Source: Chrysophaeum taylorii
Lineage: Eukaryota; Sar; Pelagophyceae; Pelagomonadales; Pelagomonadaceae
Length of the DNA: 64,000 bases
Direction of reading: 5' to 3'
NCBI GenBank assembly: GCA_029834535.1
Contig: JAQMWT010000578.1
Coordinates: 104,310-168,309, forward strand
Shown: positions 4,494-29,152 of the stretch, one piece after another
How the letters are laid out: every line of letters begins with the position of its first letter
Position numbering within the stretch: the stretch's first letter is position 1
Program-made: the position numbers and the translations under genes
Notes under the pieces: model-generated
Told to the model about the DNA's origin: nothing
The model's input: only the letters and a program-made list of their open reading frames with translations
Database searches by the model: none

Positions 4494-6218
4494 ACATGTT
4501 GTTGTTGTTGTTGTTGTTGTTGTTGTCTTTCCACCGAAGATACTGGTAATGTTAAGTCCGTCTACCTTGTTGTAACCTGCAAATCCAATATACTACTCCC
4601 CCCTCGCAAATCACCTCGCCTCGCCTATTCTCGACTGCTTGCCACTCTCATTAAAAATGGGGTTCGCTGTAGTAAATAATTGTGAAACGCAAAACCACCA
4701 GAGGGGTCCCGCCGCGTTGAGCTCCGTGGCAGCCCTCTGTCTGCATATGTAATGAGTTCGGGAGACTGGTACCTGCTGGAGGACATCTCCGGCGGCATAT
4801 CGATCGATCGGCGCAAGGGGCCGAGCCTCCGACAGCCAATCTTCGTTATCGGAGATTGATGTCGGGCAGAGCACACGTCATATCATTTGGTGCTGGGCAC
4901 CGATTCTGCTCTGCTCCGAGGTGGTGGTAATAATACGGACCTCCAAGAATTCAATTACTGGAATACGATCCCATTCGGTCGTCTCCGCCAGGAAGCGTCG
5001 GAAATGCGGAAGATTATGGTTGCTCGTTGCCAAAGACGAAAGCCAAGCGATCACAGGGCGCTCGCGTTACAGAGCTTCATGCAAGGCGCAACCTTCCGAG
5101 TCGGACATGTCGGTTCTCCTTCGTCATCGATCAGTCTTCGACCGGAACCTGCCGAGGATGAGATAAAGCGGCTGCTGGTACGTCGGGCGTGCTCGCAGAC
5201 GCCTATCGGGAGCGATGACATCTCGCCAGCGATACTCGCGCGTTTTCCCTGCGATTAGATTGAGAAGCTGATCGATTGGTGCTTTCATCTCGAAAGCAAT
5301 CATGGAGATTATTGCCATCAGCGACTCGACCTATGCGGACGACGATGCGCTATCTTATGAAGTAAGCAGGAAATCTTCGTGCCGGCACCACGCCGCAAGG
5401 TATGAGGCATGCAGTTGCTCACTGGCGCCCGAAGCGCTTGGAACGCCAAGGCACTCGTCGACGTCAGAGAACGCGCCGACGTCTGGCTTGCGCGAGTTAA
5501 GGCCGGGTGGACGCGCGCCACCGAGGATTCGCTCGCCGATCGTCGACATAACTCCTCAGGGCCTTCTCGGAGCGCTGCATCCGCGACCCAGACCTCCCGG
5601 CCCAGTTTCCCGACGACGACGGACGTGCTCTGCTCGACCTCATCTTCAGCATGGGACACAGCGACGACAGTGCCGTGTACATGCGACCCAAAACGCGAGT
5701 CTCCTGCTTGGTGAGCGCTGCACTGATCTCACTCACCCTCGGATATGGCCTTTTGCGACTACGTACCTACATACGGCCTCGTGTTGCGCGCTAGAGTTGA
5801 GGCGGCTCGGCTCATGCGAAGCCAAAGTCGTGCTCTAACAATGAGGGGGCGGCCAACCAGTCCAATTTGACTCCCCCAGCTTACGGGAGTTCGTTCCCGA
5901 GGCGGAGCTGTCGCCGTTTCAGGCTATGACGGTTGACGTCAGCCAGACGCGTGCAAATGTGTGTGTGTGTGTGTGTGATCCTACTTGGCTCAAGGATTTT
6001 AAGCACTGCGCCGCAATTGTCGAGCCAATGCCCAGGAGCGAACCGTCGGGAACCGGCGGAAAAAAATCCGAAATAATACCGATTATCGCGGAAATGACGG
6101 AGCTTCACAGACTAATTTGCCACAAAAATATCCAGATTTCGCGAAAACCACTGGTTGTCGTGACCGTTTCGGATTATTATCACAGTGAAACCAACCGAAG
6201 AAGACGGAAAAAAAAAGT
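4494..6218. other. 1.7-kb intergenic region with weak ORFs and microsatellites
   Basis: Begins with a (TTG)n microsatellite at about 4497-4527 just after the HD stop. Frames at 4887-5258 and 5302-5838 are open but have no recognisable motif. A (GT)n run lies at about 5945-5969. AT-rich sequence precedes the LPMO-like start codon. Possibly degraded mobile DNA; no family assigned. Confidence 0.4.
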
Positions 6219-7541: not shown

Positions 7542-10408
7542 GGTAAAATACATGAAGAAGCAAGTACGTGTGCTCAAGACCCCCGCCAACTCTTCTTTGA
7601 GACACCACCGGCCGGACTGAGAACTCTGGTGGGCATATGCCCGATTCCATAAAGCTAAATTTTTAGATCTACACCGCGCGTATTTTTGTATCTCTTGAAT
7701 CCAGTTCTAGGGAGCTCCAGTTTTGGCTCTAGCGGCTTGTTGCGAGCACCGCGGCTGCCTCGTGGATTCTATCAATATTGTGGATTTCCGAATTTCGTGC
7801 AGTTCCGAAAATCCGCAGAAAAAGAATAACTCTTGCCTCAACGACGGCGTCGTTGCACACATTATGGGAATCAGAGCAAACGTGATGGTGGCCGTCGGGC
7901 TCGCCAGTGGCGTCGAAGAGGTCCTCAAATTCAATGCGAGCGATCGTAACAAAAGTGACCGGCGAAATAGTCGCTTTCGACGCCCGACTTAAAATGTCAG
8001 CTGCTGAGGTCGCGGCCTGCGTCTTCGACGGCACGACCTTTTCCCAGCTGGCGAAGCTCAAAACGAGAGAAGGTGCATAGTGCGACGGCTTCGGCCTGTC
8101 TGTCGCGATATACGATGACACGGTGGTCGTCAGCGCGCGCGTGGCAGGCGGCCGTACGTTCTGGCGACGCTACCGGACCCATTTCTCTCACGAACCGAAT
8201 GGTCCCAGCCTCCAATAACCTTACCGTCGGCCCTCGCCGAGTCGGCGACGACCTCTCCCTCTGCATAACCTCAAGCCCTCGCTGTTCCTGACGACGTTAG
8301 TTACCCATCGGCGATGCCGTCGAGGGCGTCGTGGCTATTATGATACTCGCCCGCCCCCACGCCACCGGGTCGACAGCGGTGCGTACGATTACGAAGAGAG
8401 TGAGCGCGAACGCAAGGCTCCGAGTCTTGCATTTCGAAGGCGCTCTGCAATTCTGATGTGTGCTCTGCGTCCTGCGTCGAGACACGACAAGCACTGACAA
8501 GAAAGACCCGTTGCGCCTCATTATGGCCATCATAATTCAGATGGTTGATATCTTAAGTTGGCTCATCCTCATCGTAGCGCGAGTGCCACGGGCTATTCAA
8601 CCGCCCTGGCTATCTCGTGCCTGTCCTTCCATCCATGGTGAGTGGCCGATATGACGTCGAAGGTTAACCTATTATTGGCTCGTCGGTGCTCGAACAACAC
8701 AGCGTGGTCTTTCCTCGCGAAGAGGCTGTGAATGCTGCGTCATTCGTGGCCAGGTCGACGTCGGTGCGTGCGATCGATCAACAAGTGTGCGACTTGTGCG
8801 CGGCATTCATCGCGCGCAATGGCGAGATACCGTCGCTTTTTGGCCGAGTGGACTCTTCGGCTTAAGAAGAAAAGATGCGCAAAGGCGATGATGCAACGTT
8901 AGTGGCTTGCCATCCGAGGCGGTGAGTGAAGTGCAACCGCAATGGGACTCAGTGCCGAAATCAAACTTCAAACATAATTCGCCTGGACTCAGGAGGTCGA
9001 CCGCGGCAGCGGGTAGTATAGGGGTGTGTTAGGATCGGCGGCGACAAGGCGTGAGACGACATCTCTTTGCAGCTGCGACGGCATCGTCGGAGCGGCGAAC
9101 TTCGGGCGGTTTCAGAAGGTCAGAAGAGGGAAGTATTTTCGCGGTGCAGGGTTTTATTAAGCGAGGAAGTTCTGTAAGGAGAATGCGCTTGGGGTGCAGG
9201 GTTTTCAGAAATCGCCTGCTAAGAGGCGAAGGCAGAGTTTTTAAAGGTAGACTGCTAAGAGGTGGGGGGGGGGTGCGTGTGGGTGTCTTTAAAGGTCGAC
9301 TGCTAAGAGGGGGGGTGTGTGTGGTGCATGAAGGATGTGTGTGGTTTTGTGGGGTAGGAGGGATGTGCCTGACGGGCGTAGATAGGTATGCGGGACCTAG
9401 TCGGGGTCATCGCCGAGTCGTGGGGCAGGCGAAGAGAGGGGCGTGTGGGTGCTTGAAGGTGGGGGTGTGATTTTTAACGTCGGGGGGCGTTCTTTGTTTA
9501 TTTTTTATTTTATTGGTCGAGTGCTAAGAGGGGGGGGGGGTGGTGCGAGTAGGGGCGTGGGGGGTTGTGTATGGTGGATGTAGCACTGGCACGGAAGCAA
9601 GGGAGGAGTCGCTCGGCTTACGTTAGCCAGGATGGCAGACATCGCTCGCGGCATAGCGGCGGTCCCGGCATCGGCACCTGCGCCAAAGAACGTCTTCGCG
9701 AAAATGACGTTGACGATGCCGATACAGAAGCAGCAGAAACGGTTGATAGCGAGATTCGGTCAGCAGCTGGGCTCTGTGTGCCATTTGCCGGATAAATTGG
9801 CGATTGTGGCAAAATAGCGCCAACGACGAGCCAGGACGAGTCAAGGCGCAGACATTCTGTTGGGACAGTGATAGGGACCTCGGCGACGGCATGTGGTGAG
9901 CTCCCAACTGTCATGAAGGCTGCAAGCAACCCGGCCGCCAGTCCGAAGTCCGATCCCGAGATGCTACCCCTATTGTCAGCAACGACATCACGCGCAGGCG
10001 CATTTCCGTGATCGCCGGGACGCTCATGGAAACGCCAACAGCCCCTAGCCGTCGGGTCCTTGGCGGCTAGGCTCGCGCTCTGCCGTCCTCTTCAAACGGC
10101 CTGCGTCCCCGTAGTCTTCTCTTGCCCTCACTCACTTCGCTATGTTCTGCGCTCGCAGCTCTGATCGATCGCTCGGAGCTGCCCCTATTTCCACGCCGGC
10201 GGCTCTGCCCTTAACCTTTGAATTTACTCCTTATTCCTATCCCCCGAACCCGCTTCGCCTTTCTGAATATCTCCACACAGCCCACCAAGTCCCCGCTCCC
10301 ACAACCCCCCCTTAGCATCACAGTCGGCCTTAAAACTAACCCTACCTAGGTACTGTCTGTCATCCGTTTGTTTGCCTCAATCTTTTGACCACTTTTGATC
10401 ACTGAGTC
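7542..10408. other. 2.9-kb intergenic region, G/T-rich repeats inside
   Basis: No convincing gene. A 130-codon minus-strand frame (7729-8121) starts with ATG but has no family signature. From about 9200 to 9580 the plus strand is strongly G+T-rich and carries several copies of the motif CTGCTAAGAGG, part of a dispersed repeat described separately. The last 300 bp before the giant gene are C/T-rich and could include its 5' UTR or promoter. Confidence 0.45.
9287..9399 (+). repeat. Dispersed G/T-rich repeat, copy 1
   Basis: About 113 bp starting CTTTAAAGGTCGACTGCTAA and ending near TATGCGGGACCT. It is nearly identical to 27345-27457, including a GTGGGGTAGGAGGGATGTG core that occurs a third time at about 39874-39904. 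Shorter versions of its first part (TTTAAAGGTAGACTGCTAAG) lie just upstream at about 9240 and, diverged, near 9510. Whether it is a mobile element end or a satellite fragment is unclear. Confidence 0.75.
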
Positions 10409-13400
10409 ATGACCAGGGTATGGCGGGGGTCATGGCGGCGAAGGGTGCTGGCGGTGGCGGCCGTCGTCGGCGCAGACGAGTGTATGAACGGGACGTCGAT
10501 GGTGTTCGAGACAAGATACACGAGCTTCCAGGGTTCCTCGATCAGCGATCTGACACAGTATTGGTACGAGAACTATGCCGACGCTACGCCTGGAAGCGGG
10601 TACTGTGACGTGACCATCACCACCGCCACGGACTTGAGCAATGGTGCGCAGTGCGGAGGGAATAATTCCTATATCGCGTATTTCCTTGAGTTTAAGTTCT
10701 ATGCCGGTGCGTCTGGGACGTGGGCCTTTACCGCGATGATGGATACCGGCTGGGGCGGTTTCTTTGGGGTATACGATCAAAACTCGACGGCGATCGCCGA
10801 GTCACCACTCGCCGATTACTGGGGCAACCCCTACACGCTCTTGGCTAATCTAACCTATCGCGAACCATACTCTTTCCTCTCGATCGGCACGGAGAAATGC
10901 TGCGACGGTTCTGGTTACGTTTACGTATTGCCTCCCGGCGGGACTTACCAGATTGTTACGCAGTCTTTTCTTGAGAGCCAGTGCTCGTCAATCACGGCTC
11001 AGCCCTCGGAGTGTCCAAGCATTCGGCCGACGAGCATGCCCTCGTCGCTCCCGACGACGCCTCCGACCCCTGATCCCTCGCCGGCACCGACGACGCAACC
11101 GAGTCTGTCGCCGAGTGCCAACCCGTCGACGTCCCCGACATCCAACCCTGTTGAAAGCCCGTCTGGCGCGCCGTCAAGCCTACCGAACTCGATGCCTTCG
11201 CCGGCGCCCACATCGAACCCATCGTCTTCTCCATCTCCCAAACCGACGAGCTTACCAAGCACCGTGCCACGTTCTTCACCTTCAGCGCAGCCCTCTATTG
11301 TCCCAACATCCAGTCCGTCGACGTCCCCGACATCCAACCCTGTTGAAAGCCCGTCTGGCACGCCGTCAAGCCTACCGAACTCGATGCCTACGCCCGCGCC
11401 CACATCGAACCCATCGTCTTTTCCGTCTACCAGACCGACGAGCTTACCAAGCACCGTGCCACGTGCTTCACCATCGGCGCAGCCCTCTGTTGTCCCAACA
11501 CCCAGTCCGTCGACGTCCCCGACATCCAACCCTGTTGAAACCCCGTCTGGCACGCCGTCAAGCCTACCGAACTCGATGCCTACGCCCGCGCCCACATCGA
11601 ACCCATCGTCTTATCCGTCTACCAAACCGACGAGCTTACCAAGCACCGTGCTGCGTGCTTCACCATCGGCGCAGCCCTCTGTTGTCCCAACACCCAGTCC
11701 GTCGACGTCCCCGACATCCAACCCTGTTGAAAGCCCGTCTGGCACGCCGTCAAGCCTACCGAACTCGATGCCTACGCCCGCGCCCACATCGAGCCCATCG
11801 TCTTATCCGTCTACCAAACCGACGAGCTTACCAAGCACCGTGCCGCATGCTTCACCTACGGCGCTGCCCTCTATTGTCCCAACACCCAGTCCGTCGACGT
11901 CCCCGACATCCAACCCTGTTGAAAGCCCGTCTGGCACGCCGTCAAGCCTACCGAACTCGATGCCTACGCCCGCGCCCACATCGAACCCATCGTCTTATCC
12001 GTCTACCAGACCGACGAGCTTACCAAGCACCGTGCCACGTTCTTCACCTTCAGCGCAGCCCTCTATTGTCCCAACATCCAGTCCTTCGACGTCCCCGACA
12101 TCCAACCCTGTTGAAAGCCCGTCTGGCGCGCCGTCAAGCCTACCGAACTCGATGCCTACGCCCGCGCCCACATCGAACCCATCGTCTTCTCCGTCTCCCA
12201 GACCGACGAGCTTACCAAGCACCGTGCCGCGTGCTTCACCTTCAGCGCAGCCCTCTATTGTCCCAACGTCCAGTCCTTCGACGTCCCCGACATCCAACCC
12301 TGTTGAAAGCCCGTCTGCCGCGCCGTCAAGCCTTCCGAACTCGATGCCTTCGCCAGCCCCCACATCGAACCCATCGTCTTTTCCGTCTACCAGACCGACG
12401 AGCTTACCAAGCACCGTGCCACGTGCTTCACCATCGGCGCAGCCCTCTGTTGTCCCAACACCCAGTCCGTCGACGTCCCCGACATCCAACCCTGTTGAAA
12501 GCCCGTCTGGCGCGCCGTCAAGCCTACCGAACTCGATGCCTACGCCCGCGCCCACATCGAACCCATCGCCTTATCCGTCTCCCAAACCGACGAGCTTACC
12601 AAGCACCGTGCCGCGTGCTTCACCATCGGCGCAGCCCTCTGTTGTCCCAACACCCAGTCCGTTGACGTCCCCGACATCCAACCCTGTTGAAAGCCCATCT
12701 GGCATGCCGTCAAGCCTACCGAACTCGATGCCTACGCCCGCGCCCACATCGAACCCATCGTCTTATCCGTCTACCAAACCGACGAGCTTACCAAGCACCG
12801 TGCCACATGCTTCACCTACGGCGCTGCCCTCTAGTCCCCCAACACCTTCACACATTCCAACCTCTACGCCGACGCCGTTTCCCTCGGTCACACCCACCGC
12901 AACACCGTCGACAGCTCCCTCGATGTTGCCGAGCAGCTCGCGAAGCGGTGGTGCACCCTCGAGCCTCCCGTCTACCGCGCCGTCGACTCGCTATTCGACG
13001 AAGCTATCCGACGCACCGAGCCGTACTCCGTCATCACTCGCCACACTAGTGCCAACAGTCACGACGCCCTATCCGACGACGATTTTGCCGAACACGTCGC
13101 CGTCATCGGTGCCGACGAATCAGCCCAGTATGTTTCCGATGCCAACGACAACAACTGCGTTCGCGGCGAAGCCATCGCCGGTTCCATCAGCGCTCCCGAC
13201 GAAAGAATCCTCGAGGTTTCAACCTCGTCCGAGTGAGGGGCCGACTACCACACCCTCAAGCCAAGCTTCCGGAACCCTGTCGTCTAGTATGCCCAGCTTC
13301 TGGCCGTTGTCGACTCCCACCGTAGCCCCGACCACCGTGCCTGCGGCTGATCCCACGAGCACGCCCGTCTTGTCGTCGACGACCCGCACGAACCAGCCTA

Positions 13401-16400
13401 GCTCGTATCCTAAGGCCATCATGCCGACGTCCGCACCCCATCATACGTCGTCTCCGACGAATAGCCTGTCGCCGCTGCCTGCCGGCGTCCCGAGCAGCTC
13501 GATGCCTACTGCGAGCCCCTCTGCCATTCCGAGCGTGTCACCGTCTCTTGCACCATTGGCGATGCCGAGCTCCTGGCCATCGTTCCTTCCCACGAAAGAA
13601 CCCATCTCCACGAGGACTGTCGCCCCGTCTGCGAAGCCAACGAGCACGCCGAGTTCGTTGCACGCTTCCAAGCAGCCTAGCTCGTATCAATCTGCTTTAG
13701 AGGTCCCCTCAAGCTTTCCAACAACTGGCGCACCCAGTGCTGCATCAAAGAGCCAACAACCGCCTGACGACGTTCCCGAGTTTCCAATTACCTCGCCAAC
13801 ATCCACGCCAGTTCAAACAACAACCCAGCCAACATCCCCTCCCTCGACAAAGCAGTCGCCAAGTTCGTTTCCAACCACGATACCCTCGTCCGTGCCAGCC
13901 TCAAATCCGACATTAACGATGGTTCCGTCAGTATCATCAAGCAGCACGCCAAGTCCGAGACCATCAAGCCAGCATCAGACTGTAAGCCCATCGGCGACTC
14001 GGTCCGCGATACCATTGAGCACCCCCAGAAACAACAAGCCATCATCGCTTCCAACGAGCACGATTACCGCTGAGCCGACGGCCGCTCCATCTGCTGCGAA
14101 ACCATATACCGAGGCGACCAAGTCGCCGACGACAACAACCTATAAGTACCCCACCTCGTTTTTTCCGAGTGACATTCCCTCTCCGATTCCAGTGTCGATT
14201 CCAACGGCAACGTTACCGTTGCCTCTTCCATCATCAATGCCGAGAGTGATACCAACAAGCTGCCCGTCGGCTACTTCCTCCGTAGCACCATCGCGAAATT
14301 ACGCCGCCACGCCATCGGGAATTCCGACGAATGTTGTTCCTAGTTTACTTCCGACTTCCGGGCCATCTGAATCATCGTCATTTTTTGCCCCTACAAGTCA
14401 ACCCAGTTCGTTTCTGACCACTTTTGTGCCATCTCCAGTTCCATTCGCAACGCTGATGTCGATTCGGCCTACGAGTTTACCCAGCTCCGCGCTTACAGGG
14501 AGTCCCTCGAGCATTCTAAATGAGATACCAAGCGCTCCGCTGACGACAAGCCAACCATCTGTGATACCGACCGCTGCTGAACCTTCAGTGACACCAATGA
14601 ACGCCTCCGAGCCGTCAACATTGCTTCCCACCAAAGCACCAACCTCTCCACCATCAGCCATGACCTCGGTAAATCCAACGAGCACATCTAGCTCTTTTCC
14701 TACTTCAACGCCCGTAAAGCAGCAGCCAGGCTCACGTCCCTCTACCGTGCCCTCATCAGCAACCATCTCATACCCAACGCCGAATCCGACGCTGCTGCCT
14801 CTGAATGTGCCAAACTCCCAGCCTACTGGAAGTTACTTGAGCTTCTTCCCAAGGAGCGTGCCGAGTGCATTGCCTTCAACCCAACCAATCAGGACCCCCT
14901 CCACAGCTTCATCTGGTATGCCGTCAAGCGCACCGAGCTCCTCGCCATCATCGCTCCCCACATCCACCACCAAAGTTCTGACCCCTGTGCCAAGCGCAAG
15001 TCCCTCTGTTGTAGATGCGACGAACACTCCCAGCACATCGCCCTCATCGACACCCTCCAAGCAATCTAGCTCAAAGCCCACTGTGGCTGCGACATCAGCT
15101 CCCATCTCGCACGCAACAACAAATCCAACGACATTGCCTTCGATGTTGCCGAGCTCATTCGCAACTGCTAGTCCCTCAAACTTTCCTAGCCGTGTTCCAA
15201 GTTCATCGCTGTCGAGCCAGCCTCCTGGATCATTTACAGCCGCCCCGTCAGTGACACTATTAAGCGCACCGAGCTCAACGTCCACGGCAAGTCCCACGAG
15301 ATTCTCTAGTAGCGGTTCGAGTGGTTTGTTGCCCTCGAGCCCACCATCTACAGCGCAAGCAGCAGCCCCATCAGTGATGCCATCAAGCGATCCCAGCTCT
15401 TGGCCAATTCCGCTTCCCACAGACACCTCAGCGTCTGCGCCCACATCCGCACCCCTTGCGCATCCTACGACCGTATTTAGCTCGGTGCCGTCGTCAAAGT
15501 CGGCGAAACAGCCAGTCGTACATCCCACTGTGGCGCCGACGTCGGTTCCTGTCTCATTCTTGACAATGAGTCCATTGCAACTGCTGCCTTCATCGGAGCC
15601 CACGAAGCAGCCAATCATACATCCTGGTGTGATGCCGACGTCAGTTCCTGTCTCGGTCCCGACATTGAATCCATTGCCGCTGCCGTCGTCGGAGCTAACG
15701 AAGCAGCCAGTCTCACATCCCGATGTGGTGCCAACGCCAGTTTCTGACTCGCAGCTGCCGTTGTCAGAGCCCACAAAGCAGCCAGTCATTTGTCCCGGCG
15801 TGGTACCGACGTCAGTTACGGTCTCACCGCTGCCATCGTTGGACCCCACGGAGCCCACGAAGCAGCCAATCATACATCCCGGTGTGGTGCCTACGTCATT
15901 TAGTGTCTCGCCGCTGCCGTCGGGGTCCATGGAGCCTACAAAACAGCCAATCATACATCCAGGTGTGGTGCTGACGTCAGTTCCTGTCTCATTCCCGACA
16001 TTGAATCCATTGCCGCTGCCGTCGTCGGAGCCCACTGACAAGCCAATCTCATATCCCGACATAGTGCCAACTTCAGTTTCTGTCTCGCAGCTGCCGTTGT
16101 CGGAGCCCACGAAGCAGCCAATCACATATCCCGGCGAGGTGCCGACTTCAGTTACGGTCTCGCCGCTGCCGTCGTCCGAGCCTATGGAGCCCACGAAGCA
16201 GCCAATCTTACAACCTAATATGGTGCCGACAACAGCTCCTGTCCCGTGCCCAACAATGAGCACATTGTCGCTGCCGTCGTTGGAGCCCACTGAAAAGCCA
16301 ATCTCATATCCCGGCAAGGTGCCGACGTCAGTTTCTGACTCGCAGCCGCCGTCGTCGGAGCCCACGAAGCAGCCAATCACATATCCCGGCGTTGTGCCGA

Positions 16401-19400
16401 CGTCATTTAAGGTCTCGCCGCTGCCGTCGTCGGAGCCCACGAAGCAGCCAATCTCATATCCCGGCGTTGTGCCGACGTCATTTAAGGTCTCGCCGCTGCC
16501 GTCGTCGGGTTCCATGGAGCCCACAAAGCAGGCAATCTTGTATCCCAGTATGGTGCCGACGTCAGTTCCTGTCCCGTTCCCAACAATGAGTACATTGCCG
16601 CTGCCATCGTCGGAGCTCACGAAGCAGCCAGTCTCATATCCCGATGTAGTGCCAACGTCAGTTTCTGACTCGCAGCTGCCGTCCTCGGAGCACATGAAGC
16701 AGCCAATCTTATATCCCGGCGTGGTGGCCTCGCTGCTGCCGTCGTCGGAGCCCACGGAGCCCACGAAGCAGCCAATCTTGTATCCCAATATAGTGCCGAC
16801 GACAGCTCCTGTCTTGTTCCCAACAGTGAGCACATTGCCGCTGCCGTCGTCAGAGCTCACTGAAAAGCCAATCTTATACCCCGGCGAGGTGCCGACGTCA
16901 GTTTCTGGCTCGCAGCTGCCGTCGTCGGAGCCCACGAAGCAGCCAATCACATATCCCGGCGTTGTGCCGACGTCATTTAGTGTCTCGCCGCTGCCGTCGG
17001 GGTCCGTGGAGCCTACAAAGCAGCCAATCATACATCCAGGTGTGGTGCCGACGTCAGTTCCTGTCTCGTTCCCGACATTGAATCCATTGCCGCTGCCGTC
17101 GTTGGAGCCCACTGAAAAGCCAATCTCATATCCCGACAAGGTGCCGACGTCAGTTTCTGTCTCGCAGCTGCCGTTATCGGAGCCCACGAAGCAGCCAATC
17201 ACATATCCCGGCGTGGTGCCGACTTCAGTTACGGTCTCGCCGCTGCCGTCGTCGGAGCCTATGGAGCCCACGAAGCAGCCAATCTTACATCCTAATATGG
17301 TGCCGACAACAGCTCCTGTCCCGTGCCCAACAATGAGCACATTGCCGCTGCCGTCGTTGGAGCCCACTGAAAAGCCAATCTCATATCCCGACAAGGTGCC
17401 GACGTCAGTTTCTGACTCGCACCTGCCGTCGTCGGAGCCCACGAAGCAGCCAATCTCGTATCCCGGTGTGTTGCCGACGTCAGTTTCTGTATCGCAGCTG
17501 CCGCTATCGGAGCCCACAAAGCTGCCAATCATATGTCCCGGCGTGGTGCCGACGTCAGTTACGGTCTCACCGCTGCCGTCGTTGGAACCCACAGAGCCCA
17601 CGAAGCGGCCAGCCTTATATCCCAGTATCGTGCCGACGTCAGTTCCTGTCCCGTTCCGAACAGTGATTACATTGCCGCTGCCGTCGTCGGAGCCCATGAA
17701 GCAGCCAATCTCATATCCCGGCGTTGTGCCAACGTCAGTTTCCGTCTCGGAGCTGCCGTCCTCGGAGCACATGAAGCAGCCAATCATATATCCCAGCTGG
17801 TTGCCGACGACAGGTACCGTCTCGCCACTGCCGTCGTCGCAACCCCCAAAGCAGCCAATAGTACATCCCGGTTTTGTGCCGACGTCAGTTCCTATCTCGT
17901 TCCCGACAAAGACTACATTGCCGCAGCCGTCGAATGAGTCCACTAGGCAGCCAATCATACATCCCGGCGTGGTGCCGACGTCATTTACAGTCTCGCCACC
18001 ACCGTCGTCGGAACCGATAAAGCAGCCAATCTTACACCCTGGCGTGGTTCCGACGTCAGTTCCTGTCTCGCCACTGCCGTCGTCGCAGCCAACGAAGCAG
18101 CCAATCGAACATCCCGGCGTGATGCCTACGTCAATTCCTGTCTCGTTCCCAACAATGAGTACATTTCCGCTGCCATCGTCGGAGCCCACGAAGCAGCCAA
18201 TTTTACATCCCGGCGTGGTGCCGACGTCATTCACACTATCGCCGCAACCCTCGTCGGAGCTTACGAAGCGGCCAGTCTTATACCCTGGCGTGGTGCCGAC
18301 GTCAGTTCCTGTCTTGCCGCTGCCGTCGTCAGAGCCAACGAAACAACCAATCTTATATCCCGGTGTAGTGCGAACGTCAGTTCCTGTCTCGTTGCCGGTA
18401 ATGAATCCATTGCCACTGCCGTCGTCAGAGTCGACGAAACAGCCAATCTTATATCCCGGTGTGGTGCCGACGCCAGTTCTTGTCTTGCCACTGCCGTCGT
18501 CGCAGCCCACGAACCAGCCAATCATGTATCCCCGCGCGGTGCCGACGTCACTTATTATCTCGCCGCCACCGTCGTCGGAACCCACGGAACCCACGAAGCT
18601 GCCAATCTTATATCCCAATATAGAGCCGACAACAATACCTGTCTTGTTTCAGATAATGACACCATTGCCGCTGCCGTCTTCGGGGCTCACGAAGCATCCA
18701 GTCTCATCACCGAGAGTGGTGCGGACGTCAGCTCCCATCTCGTTCCTGACCAAGAATCCATCGCCACAGGCGTTGTCCGAGCCCACAAAGCAGCCAATCG
18801 TATCTCCCAGTGTGGTGCCTACGTCATTTTCTGTCTCATTCCCAACACTGAACCCCTCGCCGGAGCCGTTGTCGGAGCTAGCAATCGTATATTCTAGTGT
18901 GGTGCCGACGTCAGCTCCATTCCTGACAGAGAATCCATCGCGACTGCCGGCGTCGGAGCCTACAAAGCAGCCAATCGTATCTCCCAGTTTGGTTCCGACG
19001 TTGGGTCTGATCTCGTTTCCAACAATGAACCCATCGCAGCTGCCGACGTCGGAGCCCACGAAGCAGCCAATCGAATATCCTGCGCCGACGTCAGATCATT
19101 TCTCGTTCACAACAATGAATCCAGTGCAGTTACCGTCTAGCGCCCCGAAATCATTCCCATCTCCAAGTCCCTTGAGATTCCCAAGCAGTGTGCCGAGAGC
19201 ATGGCCTTCGATCGAATCATTTGGATCATTCTCAGCTGCACAAATAACGACGCCATCAAGCGTACGGAGCTTCTTGCCTTCGTCGCTTTCCGCCAATGCT
19301 CCAACCTTTTCACCTACAACCGCACCCTCTGCACAGCCGACAAGCGCGCCCAGCCCGTCGCCGTCGTTGCCGCCCTCGAAGCCATCCAGCTCGTATCCCT

Positions 19401-22400
19401 CTTCGGTTCCTACATCAGTCCCTATTTCGTTTCCAACATCAAAAGTTTCGCCATCGCCCTTCATTGTGCCAAGCTTGTTCCCAACCACCGGTCCTTGGAG
19501 GTTCCCTAGCATCATTCTGAGCACATCGCTGTGGCGCCAGCCGTATGGATCGCCGTCAGCTTCCCCATCGGCGGAGCCATCAAGCGGGCTCGGCTCGTGG
19601 TCGTCGTCGCTGTCAACCAAAGCTCCATTCTCCTCCGCGCCTACGGTCGCGCCATATGCACGGCCATCACATCCAAGCTTTCATCAAGGAGAGTTCTCAG
19701 CATCGCCCAGTTCAATAGTCTTCGCTGAGTCGCAGCCATCGACGCTTGAACGCGGCGGGAGCTGGACGGTTCAAAGCTCCTCACAACCTTCGAGGATTCC
19801 AACCGCAAGCACCTCGTTTCCTTCAAGTATACCAGTCAACCCGAGCTCCTTGCCAACACCACTCTCGAGCTCAAGTCGCGCACGACCCTCCGTGTTTCCC
19901 ACTGTTGCTCCATCGAGTGAACCAGATGTTCAGGTGTCGTGGGTGCCGACTCACCCTGCATCGATGCAGCCAATTCCACCACCAACGATTCAACCCAGCA
20001 AAGCATCAATAGCTGCCCAAACAACTAGCTCTCCGACATTGCCGCCACCAGAAATAGTGACCATTGCTCCGACGAAAAGTGTCTCGTCCGTGCCGAAAGC
20101 TCTGATGCTTAACTCCTCGCGCTTGCCAACCATCAAACCAACAAGTGGTGCATCCATGGTGCCTACTACAGGTGGTCTGATAACGATAGCAAGCACGTGT
20201 GAGGAACTCGACATTCCCGAGCCGCCTAAGCTCCTCTCGGCGCAATTTAGTTCCAGTGGCGCACGATTATATCTCTTCTTCGACTCGCCGACGAATCGCG
20301 CCCCGCGTGTCGCTGGTGAAGAGTTTGCATGCAACGAGCTGGTTGAATTCTCAGATGTAGAAATGACGACATGCATGTGGGTGAATTCGACGTTAGTGAC
20401 TTCTGTCATCAGCGACGCTGTGGACTTCATGCCAGGAAGCAATGTCACGCTCCTAGGTGGTGTGTTGGGTGCGATGTGTGCGAACAACGAACGGTGCGAG
20501 TCACTGTTTCAATTCAAAGACGCGCGCCAGGACTTTCGTGTGTTGATATGATGTAATGACCCTTCAGTTTGGTATGTTCCCAGGTGCGAGTGCTACAAAT
20601 CGGCGAACGAGATGACCATTGATGCAACCGGGCCCGCAAATGCCATCGTACCGCGTTCAGTATTTCAGGGACCAGCTTTGGTCTCTGTTTGCGACAATTT
20701 TACCCTGCGGGCCGATCAATCAACCGGCAGCGGTGGTCGGAAAATGACGTATTTCTGGAGTGCAGCCGCCGCCACGAAGAGTGCGATGTTGGCCGCGGCG
20801 GTGGACCGCGCGCAAGGGAACAGCTTCTTCGATTTGTCGAACTCCGAGTTGGATGAAATCATCGTTGTCACCTCGTTGCTCGAAATTACGTTGAGCCTGA
20901 CGAATTTTCTTGAGGTTCGCCACAAAACTCTCAGTCATGTCTCTCGGATTGATCGTGCTTTCTTCATAGGTCAACACGACTTCTAGCTACAGTACTCGAC
21001 TGACTTACGACCGGATCCCGTCGCTCGTGATTATCGGCGGCGCCAGCACCATTTTAGCGAGTCGAAGCGAGGCTCTCTCAATCGAAGCAGAAGGTTTTGC
21101 AACAAATTGTGACGGGAGAGCCGCCTTCGAGCGTCAAGTTGACTTCTTTTGGACGCTTTTTGAGGAGCAACCAGACGACGGGTCTCTACTTCGCACGGAT
21201 TATGTGTCGATCGCCAACAACAAGCGCTTTTTCAAGCTCAACGCCTTCGCAGAGCCCGGAGTCTTTTGTGATCGGAATCCATACACATTTCATGTCGTGT
21301 GCGTTACGTTCACGTAAGCCGTCGACCACAGGCCTTGGCGTCAAACGCCTCCTACGTGCTCCGCACTACTGTTGCCGACCAGGCCTTCTCGGAGCTAAAT
21401 AACACGCAAGACGTGTCTATTACGGTCGGCGTGGGCAAAGTCGTCGCGCTCATTGACGGTGGGGCGAACCAATCGGCCTCGACGCTGGAGGATATTTCGC
21501 TCTCAGCGACCGCATCATACGACGAAGATGATCCAACAGCAACACTGTTGTTCCGATGGCGTTGCGCGTCGGAGAACGCGAGCTTCTGCGACGAGATCCA
21601 AATGACATCGGGCCCCGTGCTTTCTATAGCGGCTGGGACGCTAGTGCCAAACACAACATACACGTTCAGCGTTGATGTCTTCTCACAGGATGGAAGAATT
21701 GCAGAAGCGCAGAAGATATTGACGACAGTGATTGCTAGGGCAATCCCTCGCGTAGACATCACATTTTTTGATAGTACCGTAAGCTCCACAGACAAGTTGA
21801 CAATTGAAGCAACCGTCGCATTGATTCCGGAAACCGCACACACAGAGCAGGTCGTTGTGTCAAACTGGCTGCTCACCCGTGGCGATCTCGACGCCGACCG
21901 GAGCCTCGAAAGTGTCGCGCGAACTCCGCTGAGCGCGTCGAAAGGATTAGATAGCAATGTGACTCGGTTTCATCCGATCGTGGTCGCGTCATCAGTGCTA
22001 TTGCCCAGTGGCACGTATGCGTTTGAGCTTGAGGCGACACTCGCGAGCAACCGCGCGTACGCAAGCATTTCGGTGATTGTTATCGAACCCCCGACTTCTG
22101 GGGGTCTAGACGTGATACCTGCCGCCGGCTATGCGTTGTACACGTTGTTTACGCTCGTGGCTGGGGGCTGGGTTTCGGCAGAGCCGCCGCTTCGGTACCG
22201 TTTCGAGACCGAGCGCGGCATCCTTCGCATTTCATCTCATGATACTGTACTTGGCAACGCACGCTTCCCGATCGGTGTTGTGCCACCCAGCCTTCAAGTT
22301 ACAGTCGTCGTTACCGACTTTCTTGAGAGCACGGCGAGCAAATCTAGCAGCGTGAACGTGAGCCATTCCAACACGTCGGCGCTTGTCGAACAAGAAGTCG

Positions 22401-25400
22401 ACGATGCCCTATCGGCCGGATTCGCAGAGTACTCACTCCACAAGGTCTGCCAAGTTATTGCCTCCACGGCAAGCATCTTTAACGGCGGCGTTGACGATGA
22501 CGAGGTGCTGGAAACGATCGTTGATGCGCTCGTGAGCGCCGTGGTAGATCTCATGGACCCCGAGCTCGAACAGATCGAAATGAGCATTGAATCGGTGCGT
22601 GCCTTGACCGAGATCGCCCTCGATGACTCCAAGGCGCGGAAAGTTCTTGACACGCTGAACGAGCTCACCTCGATGCTCGTGAACGTGGACGGCGGTTCCA
22701 GCAGCACGACGATTGAAAAAACAGTTACGGAAGCGCTAAGCAATTTACTGGCTAACGGGTTATTTACAACCGAGGACTCATCATCGCGACGACGTCGCCG
22801 TCTCGAAGGCGAAAGTCATCGAGATGACTCCGATGTCCTTCTCGAAACTGTTGATGCGCTAACGCTGGTACAGCGCGAAAAGCTCGTGTTGAACGAAGAA
22901 GCGATCGGAACGCGGGCTGCCAATCTGAGAACAGCATCGAAGCTTATATCGAATCAAGCCGAAGACGGAGCGCAAAAGATCGGAATCGCAGGCATGAACG
23001 CCTCGTCGTCGATCGTGCCGGACGACGACGGTTCTGTGTACGCTGTTTCCCTCACGGAATTCCTGATCAACCCGCATAACGCAGAAGAAGACAAGCCGGC
23101 CTTGTCGCGAGTCGTGCGCTTTGACCTAAATATCTCAAGTACTAATGAAGGCACAGCAACTAGTACCACGAAGACCGCCACAGATTTCAACTTGATGATC
23201 CCGGGAGAGGCGGCACTGAACGTGACGACGCCGGCGGTCACCGTATCAGCCGAGTGTGAGTGCGGCTTCGTTGGCTACAAGGAGGTGGAGTGCCCAAACG
23301 CGATTGCGTCGGTCTACTGCGACGGACTTGCGCCTGGTTTTTTCAACTACACGTGTAACTCGACGTCGCTCGCTTGTGCAACGTGGGACGTAAAGAGTCG
23401 TCTCTGGGTCCTGCCACCATCGTGCGAGACGGTCGCGGACGACGCCTCGACGCACTGCAATTGCCGTATCGAAGACTTCGTTACCAAAGACTACTCGACA
23501 CGTCGTGAGCTAACAAACGCCGCTGAGGAGTACACGCGAGTATTTGAAACCGAGCCGGACATACGTAGATCCCGACTCGTGCTGGCCGCATGCCTTGGTC
23601 TCGTCCTCGCCACCGTTGTTGCTGCGGCTGTCGGCGACCGCCTGGACCGGCGTAGCGAAGAACAGTTGGCGGCCAACGATGAAAGAGGAGTCCCGATTCA
23701 CAATTCCTGGATCTCGTTGTCGCAGAGCAGAAAGAGTCTCGAGGAAAACCATACGCCCACAACGCTCGCCCTTGCACGCCGACAGACGATCGAGCACGCT
23801 CCCTCCAGTTCGGAAAAAAGAATTGTCGATTCACTCACCCAACACCACCCCATGCTCAACTGGTTTTTTGTGTACAGCCCGGCCTCGCCCAGGAAGTACC
23901 GCGCTCTCAAGCTTGGTGCCAAGATAGCCCTCATATTCCTCATGCTGGCCCTCGAGGTTGTCTGGGTCGAGTTCCCCGACGTTGACTGCGGCGCGTACGA
24001 TGACGACCAGGGCAAGTGCGAAAGCAAGCTTCTGAGCCTCGTATCTCGCGCGCCGCTCTGTAGGTTTGACGTGTGCTCTGCGTCGTGTATCGGTAAAAGT
24101 ACACGGAAAGCGGCAGCCACCGTGGAACACTTCTTCTTGCTACTTGTCGTCATGGCCGTTGTCATCCCTTTATTTGCCATCTCAGATTGGCTCATCGACA
24201 ACTTCATCGCCGCGCCGGTGCCTCCGGCGCTCCAGGCCTGGTGGCTATGGCGTTCTTGTTCTCCTTCCTCTCTCCAAGGCGAGGACGCCACGTCGATCGC
24301 AGCCGGCGCTCCGTCGGCGCCCGAGTCGAGCGACGGCTTCGCACAAATCAAGATAGACTTTTACGACAAAGGAGAAAACAGTATCTTCGTCGGGAAACAA
24401 GAGTCCACGTCGGAGCTTGATGAGCAGCAGCAGCAGCAGCAAAGTCACGCCACACCTTATGATTCTATTGTTGTCACGTGGGGGGAAGAAGATGAGGCTG
24501 CGAGGAGGAGAAGATTAAGCCTCGAACAAGCGGAAACCGACCACGAAATCGGGACGGAAGAGGATGGGTCGCAGACCTTCATCACCTTCGACAGCGCAGA
24601 GAATTCTGGAGAAAACGAGGAAGCGTCGCGCCTGTCTCCTACGAAGAAGACCATCAGCAGCGAGGCCGACGACGACGATGGCGGTCGTAAAATGGAGGCG
24701 ACGTGGCCCCTGTTCGTTACGCGATGTCTCTCGAACCTCGAGTGCGACGGCGCCGATAGGCTGTTGTTGTCACCGGCTCCTCCTCAAAAAAAGATGAAAA
24801 CTACTAGCGAGACACCACGCGACGAAAGTTGGAGCAAGTCCTCGTTCCTTGGGATGTTGTCGCGGCGGGAAATGCCGAGCAGCAGCGGCGCGAGTTGCCG
24901 GGAGTCGTCGTTGTCGTCGTTTGAGTTGGAGTCGCCCAGCAGCCGTCGTAGCTCTCTCGGCAGGATGATGTCATTTGGTTGGTGGAAGTCTTCGGGATCG
25001 CCGCAGCAAAGTTTTGGCGACGTGACAAGCGGCTGGGCGTCGTCGTTGTCGTATTCGTGGACACTACCTGGATGTGAAACGCACGGTCGTCGTCGCTTTG
25101 CACTGCCGTCGTTTCGCCCGAATTCGTCGTCGTCGCCGTCGTCGTCGGTGTTTGGCCGGGATGGTGGAATTCGACGAAATTGGGTAGGTGCCACCGCGAA
25201 CCTCCAAGCGGCGGCGGCGGAGATGGACGTGCGCGCCTTGGCGCGCGTCGTCGTGCAGAACATGCGACTCGGACTCAAGGACCTCGAGAGTCGTCGCTCG
25301 CACGCCGCGTCGAACGCGAACTTTGAAGCAGCGACGATGCTGTTGGATCTCGAGGAGCATTTTCGAAGCAAGTGGAGTTGGGATCCGGACGAAGAGGCGT

Positions 25401-26383
25401 GGGAGGAGAACGTGGTGCGAACGCTTCGCGGGTACGTCCGCGACGCCTGGCTCCTGCGTGATCAAGTAGGGAAGATTTCTGCCGAAACGCCCGCGGCGAC
25501 CCTCGTCAAGCGGCTCGAGCGGCTCGTCGACGTCGAGCGCGCCTCGCACCTCACTTTAGTCGAGCGACGCATCTACGAAGCGACGTCGCGCGACGAGAAG
25601 AGGAGACAAACACCCTCTCCTGCCGCCTACGTCGCAGCTTGGCTTGTCGTTTTGGGGCTCGTAGGCGCCACCGTCTTCGTCGTGCTACGAGTCGCGACCA
25701 CGATGGGCTACGACCGCTCGATCCATTGGCTCCTCGCCGTCGTCGTCCATCTCGTGCTCATGTACGGCATTATCTACACGCTAGAAATCCTCTTGTTCGA
25801 AATAGCCCTACCCTCGCTCATCGCCGACAGATTGCGACATCTCGAGGATCCTACCGCGCTCAACGCGTATCCCTTCGAGCCGAACATCCCGACCTCGCCC
25901 GTCTTCTTTTTCTGTCAGCTCGATCCTTCGTACGCGTCGACGCGTATCGGAAGGCACGCCCTCGGCGACCAGCGCACGTCGTCGCGCGAAGAGGCTTTTT
26001 CGTACGACGAGCTCCCGGCTATATACGAGGACTTGACGTGGACTCCCTCGCCTAGAGTTCGCGCGGGCTTACGTCTCTGCGCAGCTCTCGTCGCGTTGCC
26101 CCACGCCCTCCACAAGCCCGCCTTCAAGCAGCTCGTTCTCGCGGTCAGCACCGTCGGGGCAGGTGCGACGTCAATTTTGCTCAACCGCCTTACTTCGGAC
26201 TCCGAGACGCTCTACGCTGAGATCTATTTTCTTCTCGCGGCCATCGCGGCTGTTGTTTTCGTCGTTTTTGTCTTGTGCATCTACGTCAAGTCACACGACG
26301 CCCCCGACCAGCCCCAGGTCGTCAACAAGTCTCCCCCAAGGATGACGTCTCCAGCAGCAGCAGCAGCAGAACCAGGCGAGTAA
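10409..26383 (+). CDS. Giant PT-repeat, REJ/GPS-type multi-pass surface protein (4 exons)
   Basis: Proposed exons 10409-20541, 20584-20914, 20970-21293 and 21332-26383. They sum to 15,840 nt (5,279 residues) with one frame throughout; all three introns are GT..AG and 42, 55 and 38 nt long. Order: signal-like N terminus; a globular ectodomain (about 25-200); Pro/Ser/Thr-rich stalk to about 3270 with two repeat arrays; a REJ/PKD-like extracellular region (about 3300-4250); a GPS-like site (about 4276-4316, CATWDVKSRLW..CNCRIEDF); then roughly seven hydrophobic spans, the first near 4345 (RLVLAACLGLVLATVVAAAV), interrupted by a large cytoplasmic loop with a Gln run near 4627. This architecture recalls polycystin-1-like or adhesion receptors, probably cell-surface. 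No PLAT domain or channel pore was identified. Splice sites come from frame logic alone. Confidence 0.75.
11131..12840 (+). repeat. 192-bp (64-residue) tandem repeat array inside the giant gene
   Basis: The same segment (reading TSPTSNPVESPSG) recurs every 192 bp, at 11131, 11323, 11515, 11707, 11899, 12091, 12283, 12475 and 12667: about nine highly similar units. Each encodes 64 residues dominated by Pro, Ser and Thr (for example TSLPSTVPRASPSAQPS). Near-identity at the DNA level suggests recent expansion or homogenisation. The composition fits an extended, heavily O-glycosylated or cell-wall-associated stalk. Confidence 0.92.
15590..18640 (+). repeat. Second PT-type array, about 24-25-residue degenerate units
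   Basis: Reads as variations of EPTKQPISYPGVVPTSVSVS and PLPSS, repeated dozens of times with more divergence than the first array. The two arrays differ in unit, so the stalk grew by at least two separate expansions. Codon choice leaves the opposite strand open for over 1,200 codons, which is a side effect of the repeat. Confidence 0.88.
20542..20583 (+). other. Intron 1 of giant gene (42 nt)
   Basis: GTTGAT..CCCAG; removal joins RDFRV to CECYKSANEM without a stop. Without splicing the frame meets TGA at 20549. Confidence 0.6.
20915..20969 (+). other. Intron 2 of giant gene (55 nt)
   Basis: GTTCGC..CATAG; falls between complete codons and joins LTNFLE to VNTTSSYSTRL. The unspliced frame ends at 20986. 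Confidence 0.6.
21294..21331 (+). other. Intron 3 of giant gene (38 nt)
   Basis: Acceptor CCACAG at 21331. Donors at 21294, 21297 or 21303 all keep frame; 21294 gives the longest intron and the join PYTFH/ALASNAS. The exact donor is uncertain. Confidence 0.5.
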
Positions 26384-27552
26384 TAACTCTCTCGGTAAAC
26401 GAATGAATAAATTTACTGTCGTCGTCAATTATATTTTCATCTTTCGGAGCTGCATTCTTGTGATAGTTTCGTTCATAAGGGCGCAGCGTGTGTCGGCGGT
26501 TTTCGAGCGGCGCGATCCTCGCTCGCTCGCGAAAAAAAAAGCATCGAATGAGGACATCAAGATCGACGGGCACCTAAGACTTAGCCTGCCTGAAGGGGCC
26601 TGAAAGGCCTTCTTAGTGAAGCTGATTATACTAGCTCTAGGCTAAATAAACCGATCGACTCGCGCAATGTCGATTGCGTATCAAGACCAGCTCCTCCGGC
26701 GTGTGTCGAACACAAGGCCGCGAGTTGACTGAGAATCAACGTCGTCGTCAACTTCCATACCCACGCCGAACGTTGCAGCTTCAAACAAGCCCACCGAGTA
26801 GGAGATTAGGTGCCAATCTTTGTCGCAGAGGGAGGACCGATGCCCCGCAAGGCGCAGGTTCATAAGGTCCTCATCACCCATCAGAAAATGGGCTTCTGTC
26901 TGGGAGCCTCTGAAATCAACGACTCTTTGTATTGCCCCTTCTCCATTCAGTGCTTTTGCCTCTTTCCACCACATGCCTTCAACCTGCGTTGAGCGGGATC
27001 ACTCTCCCGCCTGACTGCCAGCGGACTTGGACTGCTCCGGTATTGGCGGCGACGGCGGTCGCGGCGGCCTTGCCTCTGAGCCCGTCCCATCTAACTCCCC
27101 CAAACGCTCGTTCTGCCCCCCTTTCGATCTACGCGCCCTGCGCGTTCTACACCTCTCTTGCGCCCCATCTCACCATGCGCTCTTTTTGTTGCTCCCACCC
27201 CGCTTCTCACTGCGTTACCGCCCCTCTCTCCTCTGCTTTGCCTTTTTTTCTTTTTGCTTCCTCCATCGCCTCCTCTGCGGTCGGTCTTCTCTCTCTGTCT
27301 TCTCTGTCTTGTCTGTCTATCTGTCTGTCTCTCTGTCTGTCTGTCTTTAAAGGTCGACTGCTAAGAGGGGGGTGTGTGTGGGGGGCATGAAGGATGTGGG
27401 TGGTTTTGTGGGGTAGGAGGGATGTGCCTGACGGGAGGAGATAAGTATGCGGGACCTCTGTCTCTCTGTCTACGCGGGCAACTTATGCCGCCTTCCTTCG
27501 TTCTCGCCGCACCAGAAATAGAGTAAGGATTTCGGTAGGATTAGGGATTGTG
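26384..27552. other. Intergenic region with CT-rich and CTGT microsatellite sequence
   Basis: AATAAA near 26405 could serve as polyadenylation signal for the giant gene. From about 27150 to 27345 the plus strand is pyrimidine-rich and ends in a (CTGT)n microsatellite that abuts the second copy of the G/T-rich repeat. No gene identified. Confidence 0.5.
27345..27457 (+). repeat. Dispersed G/T-rich repeat, copy 2
   Basis: Near-identical to 9287-9399 in the same orientation, 18 kb apart on the other side of the giant gene. Differences are mainly in G-run length and single bases. Confidence 0.75.
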
Positions 27553-29152
27553 ATGTTGATGACCGCGTGCTTGGCGGGAAACGTGAGTGTCGTGCGGCGG
27601 CTGGTCGCTCGCAGTCCTTCCGACGTGAATCAGGTGGGTGACTTTTACTCGCCCCTCGGTGCCGCGAGCTTAAATGGCCACATCGGCGTTGCCCGTCTCT
27701 TGCTGAAATTCGGCGCTGACGTGAATCTTACGGCCAAGAACGGAAGCTCACCGCTCTACGCCGCATGCACGACGGGGCAGGTCGACGCGATAAGGCTGCT
27801 CCTCGATCATGGCGCTGACGTGAATCAGACCAACAACAACGGGTGCTCGGCTCTCCACGCCGCGTGCGAGAACAGCCACAAGGCCGTTGTACGTTTGCTC
27901 CTCGATCGTGGCGCCGACGTCAATATCGCCTCTCACTTTGGTGCCTCGGCGCTCTGTGTCTCGAGCTTTGAGGGCGACATCGACGTGTCATGCCTTCTGC
28001 TCGATCATGGTGCCGACGTCAACCAGGCTACCAACGAAGGCTGCACGCCTTTGGGCTTCGCGGTTTCGCGAGATCATGTCGCGATGGCAACCGTACTGCT
28101 CGAGACAAGCGGCGTCGACGTCGACAAGGTCGACCTTACGGGTAACACGGCGCTCTGCCAGGCCTGCAAGAGCGGGAACGTCGCCTTCGTTCGATTGTTA
28201 ATTTCGCGCGGTGCCAACGTCAACCACGCCGCCAACAACGGCGTCTCGCCACTGTTCATCGCGAGCGAGCATGGTCATGTTGCCGTCGCCAGCCACTTGC
28301 TTTCGTGCGGCGCTGACGTCAACCAGGCTAGCAAGGATGGCGTCTCGCCGCTCAACATGGCGTCTCACAACGGCCACGTTTCCGTCGCGCGATTGCTACT
28401 ATCGCGCGGCGCGGGCGTCAATCAGACCAACAGTGGCAAGCAAGGTCACGCCGCTTCACATAGCGATCCAGAAAGGCTACGTCGACATGGCTGCCGCACT
28501 GCTCGAGACGAGTGGCGTCGACGTGAACCTGGCCGACAAACACGGGGTATCTTAGTGCCGCGAGCGCGAACGGCCTCGTCGACGCGGTAACCCTGTTGCT
28601 AGATCATGATGCTGACGTCAACCAGGCCAGCAATTTCGGTGCCTCACCCCTAATAATTGTGTATTTAGGGCGATTTTGAATGGCCACGTCGAAGTGGCAC
28701 GTCTCTTGCTCGCGAACGGTGCCGACGTCGACGCCGTGACCAGGAGCGGGTTTTCGACCCTTCACGCCGCGGTTCAATCCGGCAAAGTTTCCGCGGTAAG
28801 TCTTTTGTTGAAACACGGCGCTGACGCCAACCAGACCGCCCCACTTATAAACGGCTTCATCGTTTCGCCGCTTCACGTCGCGGGCTGCAATGGTCTCGCC
28901 GACATATCTCGGGTGCTGCTCACCAACGGCGCCAACCCAAACCTAGTGGACTCTAGGGGCAGGACGTCTCTTGACATGGCGCGCCATCACCCCGTCGTTT
29001 TCCGGCTACTCACCTCCTCTCTCATCGACCTTCTTCTCGAATCTTCTTCCACCGATGATATTGACTTTGAGGTTCGAGAAGAAGGCCGCACGTCGAAGAA
29101 ATGCCCGCGCTGTACGGGACTGCGACGCCTCTGGTCCAGACAAGGGACCTGA
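27553..29152 (+). pseudogene. Ankyrin-repeat protein gene with about three frameshifts
   Basis: From the ATG at 27553 about 295 codons read as consecutive ankyrin repeats (GADVNQTNNNGCSALHAACE, with repeated DVNQA and VARLLL motifs). Near 28435 the frame shifts (VTPLHIAIQKGYVDMAAALL follows in another frame), again near 28550 (ANGLVDAVTLLLDHDADVNQ), and again near 28660, after which NGHVEVARLLLANGADVDAV runs to the stop at 29150-29152. All pieces are clean ankyrin sequence, so roughly 15 repeats once formed one protein. The C terminus carries KKCPRCTGLRRLW, a possible partial zinc site. Tiny introns cannot explain these single-base shifts, so a recent pseudogene is the simplest reading. Confidence 0.75.

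Follow-up and report, generated by a model that had tools for sequence, protein, structure and literature searches.

The window analysed here is a 64 kb stretch of contig C578, taken from a genome of 70.8 Mb in 697 contigs. Its forward strand carries a giant gene whose predicted protein consists, in this order, of a short Cys-rich head, a Pro/Ser/Thr stalk of about 3,060 residues, a REJ domain, a GPS-like Cys/Trp motif of divergent sequence and, by prediction, about seven membrane spans. Because a profile search found 84 light-harvesting-protein places in the genome, the source is considered to be a photosynthetic alga; no match to a silicon transporter was found in the genome, which makes a diatom improbable. 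Relatives were searched for in this one genome, and every relative compared is a paralog. The features of the gene are as follows.

10409 to 11014, forward strand: head, whose start resembles a signal peptide as judged by eye; its Cys-rich domain (about 200 residues) stands where the paralogs have the FG-GAP propeller
11015 to 20191, forward strand: Pro/Ser/Thr stalk, 3,059 residues, recognized by composition and proline spacing; Pfam PT repeat matches below cut-off only
11123 to 12846, forward strand: repeat array 1, a 192-bp (64-residue) unit in 9.0 copies with 94% matches (Tandem Repeats Finder, TRF)
about 15504 to 18731, forward strand: repeat array 2, degenerate units of about 75 bp (25 residues) with higher-order periods of 246-336 bp (TRF)
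20192 to 20493, forward strand: conserved post-stalk segment at the end of exon 1; query 20021-20548 gives 48-58% identity in nine paralogs; donor at 20494
20584 to 20914, forward strand: exon 2, start of the REJ-like ectodomain; 57-75% identity in nine paralogs, with aligned splice sites
20970 to 21248, forward strand: exon 3, REJ-like ectodomain; 63-77% identity in nine paralogs; GC donor in 10 of 10 copies
21332 to 26383, forward strand: exon 4, with REJ, GPS-like motif, seven-span module and stop codon; 50-60% identity in nine paralogs (in C320 over the first 966 residues only)
21332 to 22417, forward strand: REJ domain, Pfam PF02010, profile positions 44-436 of 452; E 2.8e-36 in the genome search, E 3.5e-36 in the Pfam scan
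23252 to 23536, forward strand: GPS-like Cys/Trp region before the first span, with CATWD at 23375, CNCRIED at 23456 and no H-L-S/T; defined in the ten-copy alignment, and aligned with the GPS of two relatives, L022 and L023, in which Pfam matches it
23576 to 24184, forward strand: predicted transmembrane spans TM1 to TM3, of which TM2 and TM3 are joined by a 53-residue loop with 5 Cys (averaged hydropathy, nine copies)
24185 to 25630, forward strand: long, presumably cytoplasmic loop of 482 residues (averaged hydropathy), fast evolving (see below)
25631 to 26287, forward strand: predicted TM4 to TM7, TM6 weak (hydropathy averaged over nine copies)

Open frames at 10406-20551 and 21272-26383 are both present in the window, and splicing of four exons (10409-20493, 20584-20914, 20970-21248 and 21332-26383) gives a single frame of 15,747 nt that encodes 5,248 residues. 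An initial annotation of this DNA had also proposed four exons in one frame, which stands; its length of 5,279 residues was corrected when the splice sites were refined by alignment of the window with nine paralogs. The introns are located at 20494-20583 (GT-AG), 20915-20969 (GT-AG) and 21249-21331 (GC-AG). The GC donor of intron 3 (TTY/GCA) is found in all ten copies in the splice-region alignment. Around this intron, the end of one exon and the start of the next have a short direct repeat in common (GCCTTCGCA and GCCTTGGCG), which leaves the exact splice point uncertain by a few codons. A GT donor (GAGTC) for intron 3 was ruled out, as it is preceded by an in-frame stop in C320 and C349d and the frame is lost in C331 and C349c.

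The comparison set consisted of ten of the 44 other REJ places in the genome, picked for a similar REJ profile start and a similar open-frame length. In nine of these ten loci, the last part of exon 1 of the window gene and its exons 2, 3 and 4 all have counterparts, the sole exception being C357, which matches only weakly; immediately upstream, each of the nine carries a PT-rich open frame between about 2,000 and 3,465 residues long. Moreover, a more distant relative, C492 (L021), combines, without splicing, FG-GAP repeats, a PT stalk, a segment like exons 2 and 3 and the greater part of REJ in a single frame of 3,332 residues or more (3,550 in other genome-wide profile scans); because this frame is uninterrupted, the joining of stalk and REJ is free of any splicing assumption there. 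These comparisons indicate that stalk and REJ core are one polypeptide and that the fusion is real. The stop codon at 20549-20551, reached if intron 1 stays unspliced, could indicate two adjacent genes wrongly joined, a PT-repeat wall protein (10409-20551) followed by a separate REJ protein (from 21332). The nine paralogs, however, keep the same order, exon ends and splice sites and conserve the exon blocks jointly, and C492 provides a single-frame version. On this evidence the two-gene arrangement, which the initial annotation had named as the outcome that would overturn its model, is rejected as far as sequence allows, and we consider it extremely improbable.

REJ core, membrane module and stalk

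The REJ domain of the window protein scores 125 bits against a Pfam cut-off of 25, so that the REJ ectodomain of the initial annotation was borne out, as was, for REJ, the profile search it had proposed as a check. Apart from REJ, only a weak PKD-like match was found in exon 4 at E<=1. The motif C..WD....W....C.......C.C in the GPS-like region is present in all ten family copies. The H-L-S/T cleavage tripeptide is absent from all ten aligned copies and, by eye, also from the relatives C40 and C524:469202, and the description of the core as autoproteolytic-receptor-like is therefore not supported. The Pfam GPS profile matches neither the window protein (E<=1) nor the fragment alone (E<=10). By comparison, C40 matches it with 28 and 23.3 bits in two scans (cut-off 22.5), and C524:469202 more weakly, with 23.4 bits in one scan and 19.6 in the other; both matches reach only profile position 36 or 37 of 45. 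The family profile aligns to C40 across GPS and TM1, TM2-TM3 and TM4-TM5 (two-sequence search with filters off), and the Cys/Trp columns of the window align with the GPS columns of C40 and C524:469202. The GPS-like motif noted in the initial annotation thus aligns with Pfam-positive relatives while lacking a Pfam match itself, and most plausibly represents a divergent GPS that probably does not cleave. No GAIN match was found for exon 4 at E<=1. A search of the ectodomain profile against solved structures gave nothing relevant to GAIN, the best hit (E 0.018) being to a KIAA0319-like protein, with a best stretch that covers 34 residues of the REJ part.

Hydropathy averaged over nine aligned copies predicts seven spans, the sixth weak, in agreement with the roughly seven hydrophobic spans originally noted. 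C320 was left out of this average, as its open frame breaks off after exon 4 residue 953. Single copies show 6 to 8 spans, and the window alone shows 6 when overlapping peaks are merged and weak ectodomain peaks are excluded. The loop between TM1 and TM2 has 93 residues in the averaged profile.

The ratio of nonsynonymous to synonymous substitution rates (dN/dS) was compared in five pairs (window-C524, window-C349d, C349a-C349b, C349d-C349c and C331-C349c). For the window against C524 and C349d, dN/dS was 0.17-0.19 in REJ, 0.17 in the GPS-like region, 0.24-0.40 in the linker and membrane parts and 0.49-0.52 in the cytoplasmic loop. The pairs C349a-C349b and C349d-C349c gave 0.14-0.35 outside the loop and 0.41-0.57 inside, and C331-C349c has too few differences for a firm value (0.70 in REJ, from very few changes). 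The core is under purifying selection.

The stalk is composed of 23% P, 22% S, 12% T and 0.2% C, and 407 of its 699 successive proline distances are exactly four residues. TRF found both arrays of what had been described as a Pro/Ser/Thr stalk of about 3,000 residues with two different repeat arrays. The within-repeat ratio of nonsynonymous to synonymous differences (pN/pS) was 0.72 in array 1 (8 copies) and above 1 in array 2 (four equal-length units, the sole comparable ones). The earlier argument that the open frame implies selection consequently holds for the core, with dN/dS of 0.17-0.40 outside the loop in two pairs, and hardly for the stalk, which seems to be retained in composition rather than in residues. 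With a rise of 0.2-0.31 nm per residue, the extended stalk would measure about 0.6-0.95 micrometre. Eight paralogs have a conserved domain of some 160 residues near the end of exon 1, between the stalk and the post-stalk segment (e.g., C349c frame residues 2741-2920 of the fetched part); this domain has no Pfam match, and such a low-PT segment was not seen in the window gene and C524.

Heads and family members in the genome

REJ matches 45 places in the genome, counted as 42 loci, and four close-paralog genes are clustered within 70 kb on C349. Five further REJ places with partial matches and PT-rich upstream frames lie within 84 kb on C322. Upstream sequence was sampled at 29 further REJ loci, as one spot of 1.2 kb at 3.5-4.7 kb upstream of each. 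By this spot, which covers the PT-rich call and not a frame shared with REJ, 17 of the 29 are PT-rich (16 by rule, plus C315 in a frame that the rule skipped). In total, a PT-rich frame is found upstream of REJ in 28 of 41 loci (10 of 11 in the window group, C492, and 17 of 29), a count that leaves out the locus at C2:200 kb (two places).

All nine close paralogs begin, as judged from profile and blastp matches, with an FG-GAP beta-propeller. In eight of them, the PT open frame contains FG-GAP_2 repeats by Pfam (7 repeats each, at E 1.4e-81 and 9.8e-113, in the two heads scanned), and the head of the ninth, C320, matches the other heads by blastp at E 4.6e-4 to 4.9e-21. Some heads carry further domains: a C-type lectin domain in C320 (Lectin_C E 7.7e-8) with a second similar copy by eye, a laminin-G domain in C349c (Laminin_G_3 E 4.3e-7), and two copies of a Cys-rich segment without a Pfam name in C349d. 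Elsewhere in the genome, C106:32326-55604 holds a long Laminin_G_3 series with many identical scores, which are probably nearly identical repeats.

The window gene is the sole one of the ten family copies without a propeller, none being found in it by Pfam scans or by the genome-wide FG-GAP_2 search, which scored 150 of 213 candidates. Pfam recognizes no domain in its head, and a PT match at the end of the head stays below threshold. Relatives of this head were found at two places in the genome. The first, C379:200486-200998, is 45% identical over residues 21-194 and lies in an open frame that by eye continues into other extracellular-looking sequence without a PT stalk. The second, C2:42964-43276, consists of short pieces followed by PT sequence in broken frames. 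In sequence terms, the window gene is one member of a diversified family, with the odd-one-out head among ten.

C331 and C349c (L013-L016, L025 and L026) share an abruptly bounded block of 9,275 bp at 99.2% identity, which begins mid-stalk and extends about 150 bp beyond the stop codon. Upstream of this block, identity drops to about 85% for the stalk DNA and about 67% for the protein sequence of the propeller heads, and the laminin-G domain is present in C349c only. Since the first 236 bp alone of the 5.2 kb downstream flank match (85%), the two copies do not represent haplotypes of a single locus. A pattern of this kind is what would remain after recombination or gene conversion whose breakpoint fell in the stalk; alternatively, the identity may reflect misassembly in repeats.

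Known systems and possible function

A close published likeness, judged from description and not from sequence alignment, is to the Ectocarpus polycystin/REJ-like proteins (IPR002859), which, as in the window, combine REJ with 6-7 spans in a photosynthetic alga (PMC4700764). In the excerpted account, Esi0130_0068 has REJ, GPS and 6-7 spans, with positive selection in REJ, and its 1,427 residues, 976 of them in the N-terminal extracellular part, are too few for a 3,000-residue stalk; its reported GPS and polycystin-channel matches (PMC4700764) are to profiles that the window protein matches in neither case. Five polycystin/REJ-like proteins are reported in the passages drawn on to be expressed only in Ectocarpus males (PMC3879662).

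Among animal proteins, the REJ proteins of sea urchin that bear lectin domains are credited with a role in gamete recognition, and the acrosome reaction is triggered by antibodies to SpREJ1 (PMC1934368, in part). SpREJ and PKD1 (polycystin-1) have a large ectodomain with REJ and then a GPS-type motif ahead of TM1, a layout which the window protein resembles with its divergent GPS-like motif. According to the same source, some members carry C-type lectin domains, found here in paralog C320; some SpREJ members lack PLAT, and SpREJ spans range from 0 to 11 (PMC1934368). The window protein differs from SpREJ/PKD1 in having about seven spans, not eleven, and a PT stalk, with FG-GAP heads in its paralogs. 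Neither PLAT after TM1 nor PKD_channel was found in exon 4 (Pfam, E<=1), and none of the 9 PKD_channel places in the genome is near a REJ place. PKD_channel matches do occur on the same contig, at C578:46706-50089, outside the receptor gene and ending about 54 kb before the window start. By its domain content, with no PLAT, channel, eleven spans or cleavage site, the window protein is not a typical PKD1 family member, though sea-urchin members vary in several of these traits. The membrane module resembles the span pattern of PKD1 in pattern only, and a PKD1-like assignment was dropped when the solved-structure profile search gave nothing relevant; no homology is claimed.

Adhesion G protein-coupled receptors (GPCRs) are alike in outline, with a variable adhesive head, a stalk, a GPS-type motif and seven spans; the window protein differs in lacking a GPCR profile match (exon 4 at E<=1, its last 279 residues at E<=10) and the cleavage tripeptide and in having a 482-residue loop between spans 3 and 4. 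The FG-GAP beta-propeller of integrin-alpha-like proteins, present in the nine close paralogs, was not found in the window gene. The window protein has the PT stalk in common with algal PT-repeat and FG-GAP surface proteins, and its paralogs also share the FG-GAP_2 propeller with them; those known are, to our knowledge, secreted or single-span, whereas here the stalk is joined to a REJ/GPS/multi-span core. A 2026 review, in the part drawn on, treats polycystin-1 as an atypical adhesion GPCR and mentions that unicellular species have a broad repertoire (PMC13197933). Among the papers listed by word searches of the open PMC literature, none describes a PT stalk with propeller, lectin or laminin-G heads on a REJ core, nor the head of the window protein. 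The earlier suggestion that no described protein has exactly this order thus holds, in the literature searched, for the stalk and its varied heads; the REJ, GPS and 6-7-span core was already known from Ectocarpus Esi0130_0068, as excerpted (PMC4700764).

Taking into consideration that a head, a PT stalk, a REJ core and a multi-pass membrane module are found in one polypeptide, the role as a cell-surface receptor put forward in the initial annotation is very likely, and the protein is probably a giant recognition or adhesion receptor of a diversified algal family. Located at the surface, it would bind a partner through its head, which might be another cell, a gamete or flagellum, or matrix, while the stalk, probably heavily glycosylated, would hold the head out beyond the cell wall. 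A binding event or a pull on the head could then be relayed by the REJ/GPS region, without cleavage, to the membrane module, and the long cytoplasmic loop of this module may couple to signalling. By analogy, its working mode is best read as that of sea-urchin REJ proteins or adhesion GPCRs, minus the cleavage. Gamete recognition would be the most likely single use, a tentative choice favoured because several Ectocarpus REJ-like proteins are reported to be male-gamete expressed. More speculatively, a constant REJ/GPS/multi-span signalling core with heads swapped by recombination in the PT stalk could form a diversified recognition repertoire for mating-type or self/non-self discrimination. This is suggested by the C331/C349c block under diverged heads and by the occurrence of the window head in a different protein context; we consider it rather unlikely.

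Several observations weigh against a recognition or adhesion receptor. Since the propeller found in the nine close paralogs is missing from the window gene, ligand inferences from their heads do not transfer to it. Twelve of the 29 sampled REJ loci are not PT-rich at the single spot (C178 is borderline), and the distant relative C357 has no PT-rich frame in 10 kb upstream, so that the stalk is not obligatory; both stalk arrays, moreover, show little residue constraint (pN/pS 0.72 and above 1). A GAIN fold, like the fold of the membrane module, is putative here, and the membrane-module profile retrieved nothing relevant from solved structures (best E 0.082, in a low-complexity stretch). In the Ectocarpus accounts, as excerpted, the male/female log2 ratio of Esi0130_0068 is only 0.62 by RT-PCR (2.22 by SOLiD; PMC3879662), and its polycystin-channel match (PMC4700764) has no counterpart in the window protein.

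Among other explanations, a cell-wall integrity sensor or mechanosensor would have its stalk embedded in the wall and signal stretch through the core, its head being an anchor and not a recognition site. Yeast Wsc-type sensors are a model for such wall-stretch signalling, and the long Ser/Thr/Pro stalk, the conservation of the core under variable heads and the weak residue constraint with kept composition and proline spacing, as suits a tether, all agree with it. Yet the propeller, C-type lectin and laminin-G heads of the paralogs point to ligand binding, and so many paralogs would be redundant in this role, which we regard as unlikely. The FG-GAP propellers of all nine close paralogs would also fit a substrate or aggregate adhesion protein, integrin-like in use, with a membrane part that is mainly an anchor and signalling secondary. 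No propeller was found in the window gene itself, however, and a multi-span module under purifying selection exceeds a mere anchor, making this explanation quite improbable. Finally, the missing propeller, peculiar to the window among ten copies, and the broken copy with the same head at C2:42-44 kb could mark a decaying family member that has lost its propeller and gone out of use. Against such decay, 15.7 kb stays open in frame, the core dN/dS between window and paralogs is 0.17-0.40 and the splice sites are the same as in the paralogs; we hold it to be very improbable.

Polycystin/REJ proteins have been studied as animal egg-recognition and kidney-disease proteins. As a recognition receptor, the algal protein would represent an independent form of the adhesion-receptor design, composed of head, stalk, GPS region and membrane module and apparently not cleaved, which allows one to ask which parts of the design signalling needs, and the family provides testable candidates for gamete or cell recognition in algae.

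Neighbouring genes

About 2.9 kb upstream of the receptor gene and on the same strand, window positions 6189-7541 encode an LPMO_10 protein (Pfam E 1.6e-11) that also contains Cys-rich segments and linkers of the PT type. An ankyrin-repeat frame (Ank_2 E 1.2e-60) is located about 1 kb downstream, at 27445-28590 on the forward strand. Other genes in the window encode an HD-domain protein with weak zinc-ribbon matches (2796-4493, forward), an aldo/keto reductase (44506-45747, reverse) and an inositol monophosphatase family protein (47611-48879, reverse). An ACAAG microsatellite of 26.2 copies with 98% matches (TRF) is found at 39936-40066.

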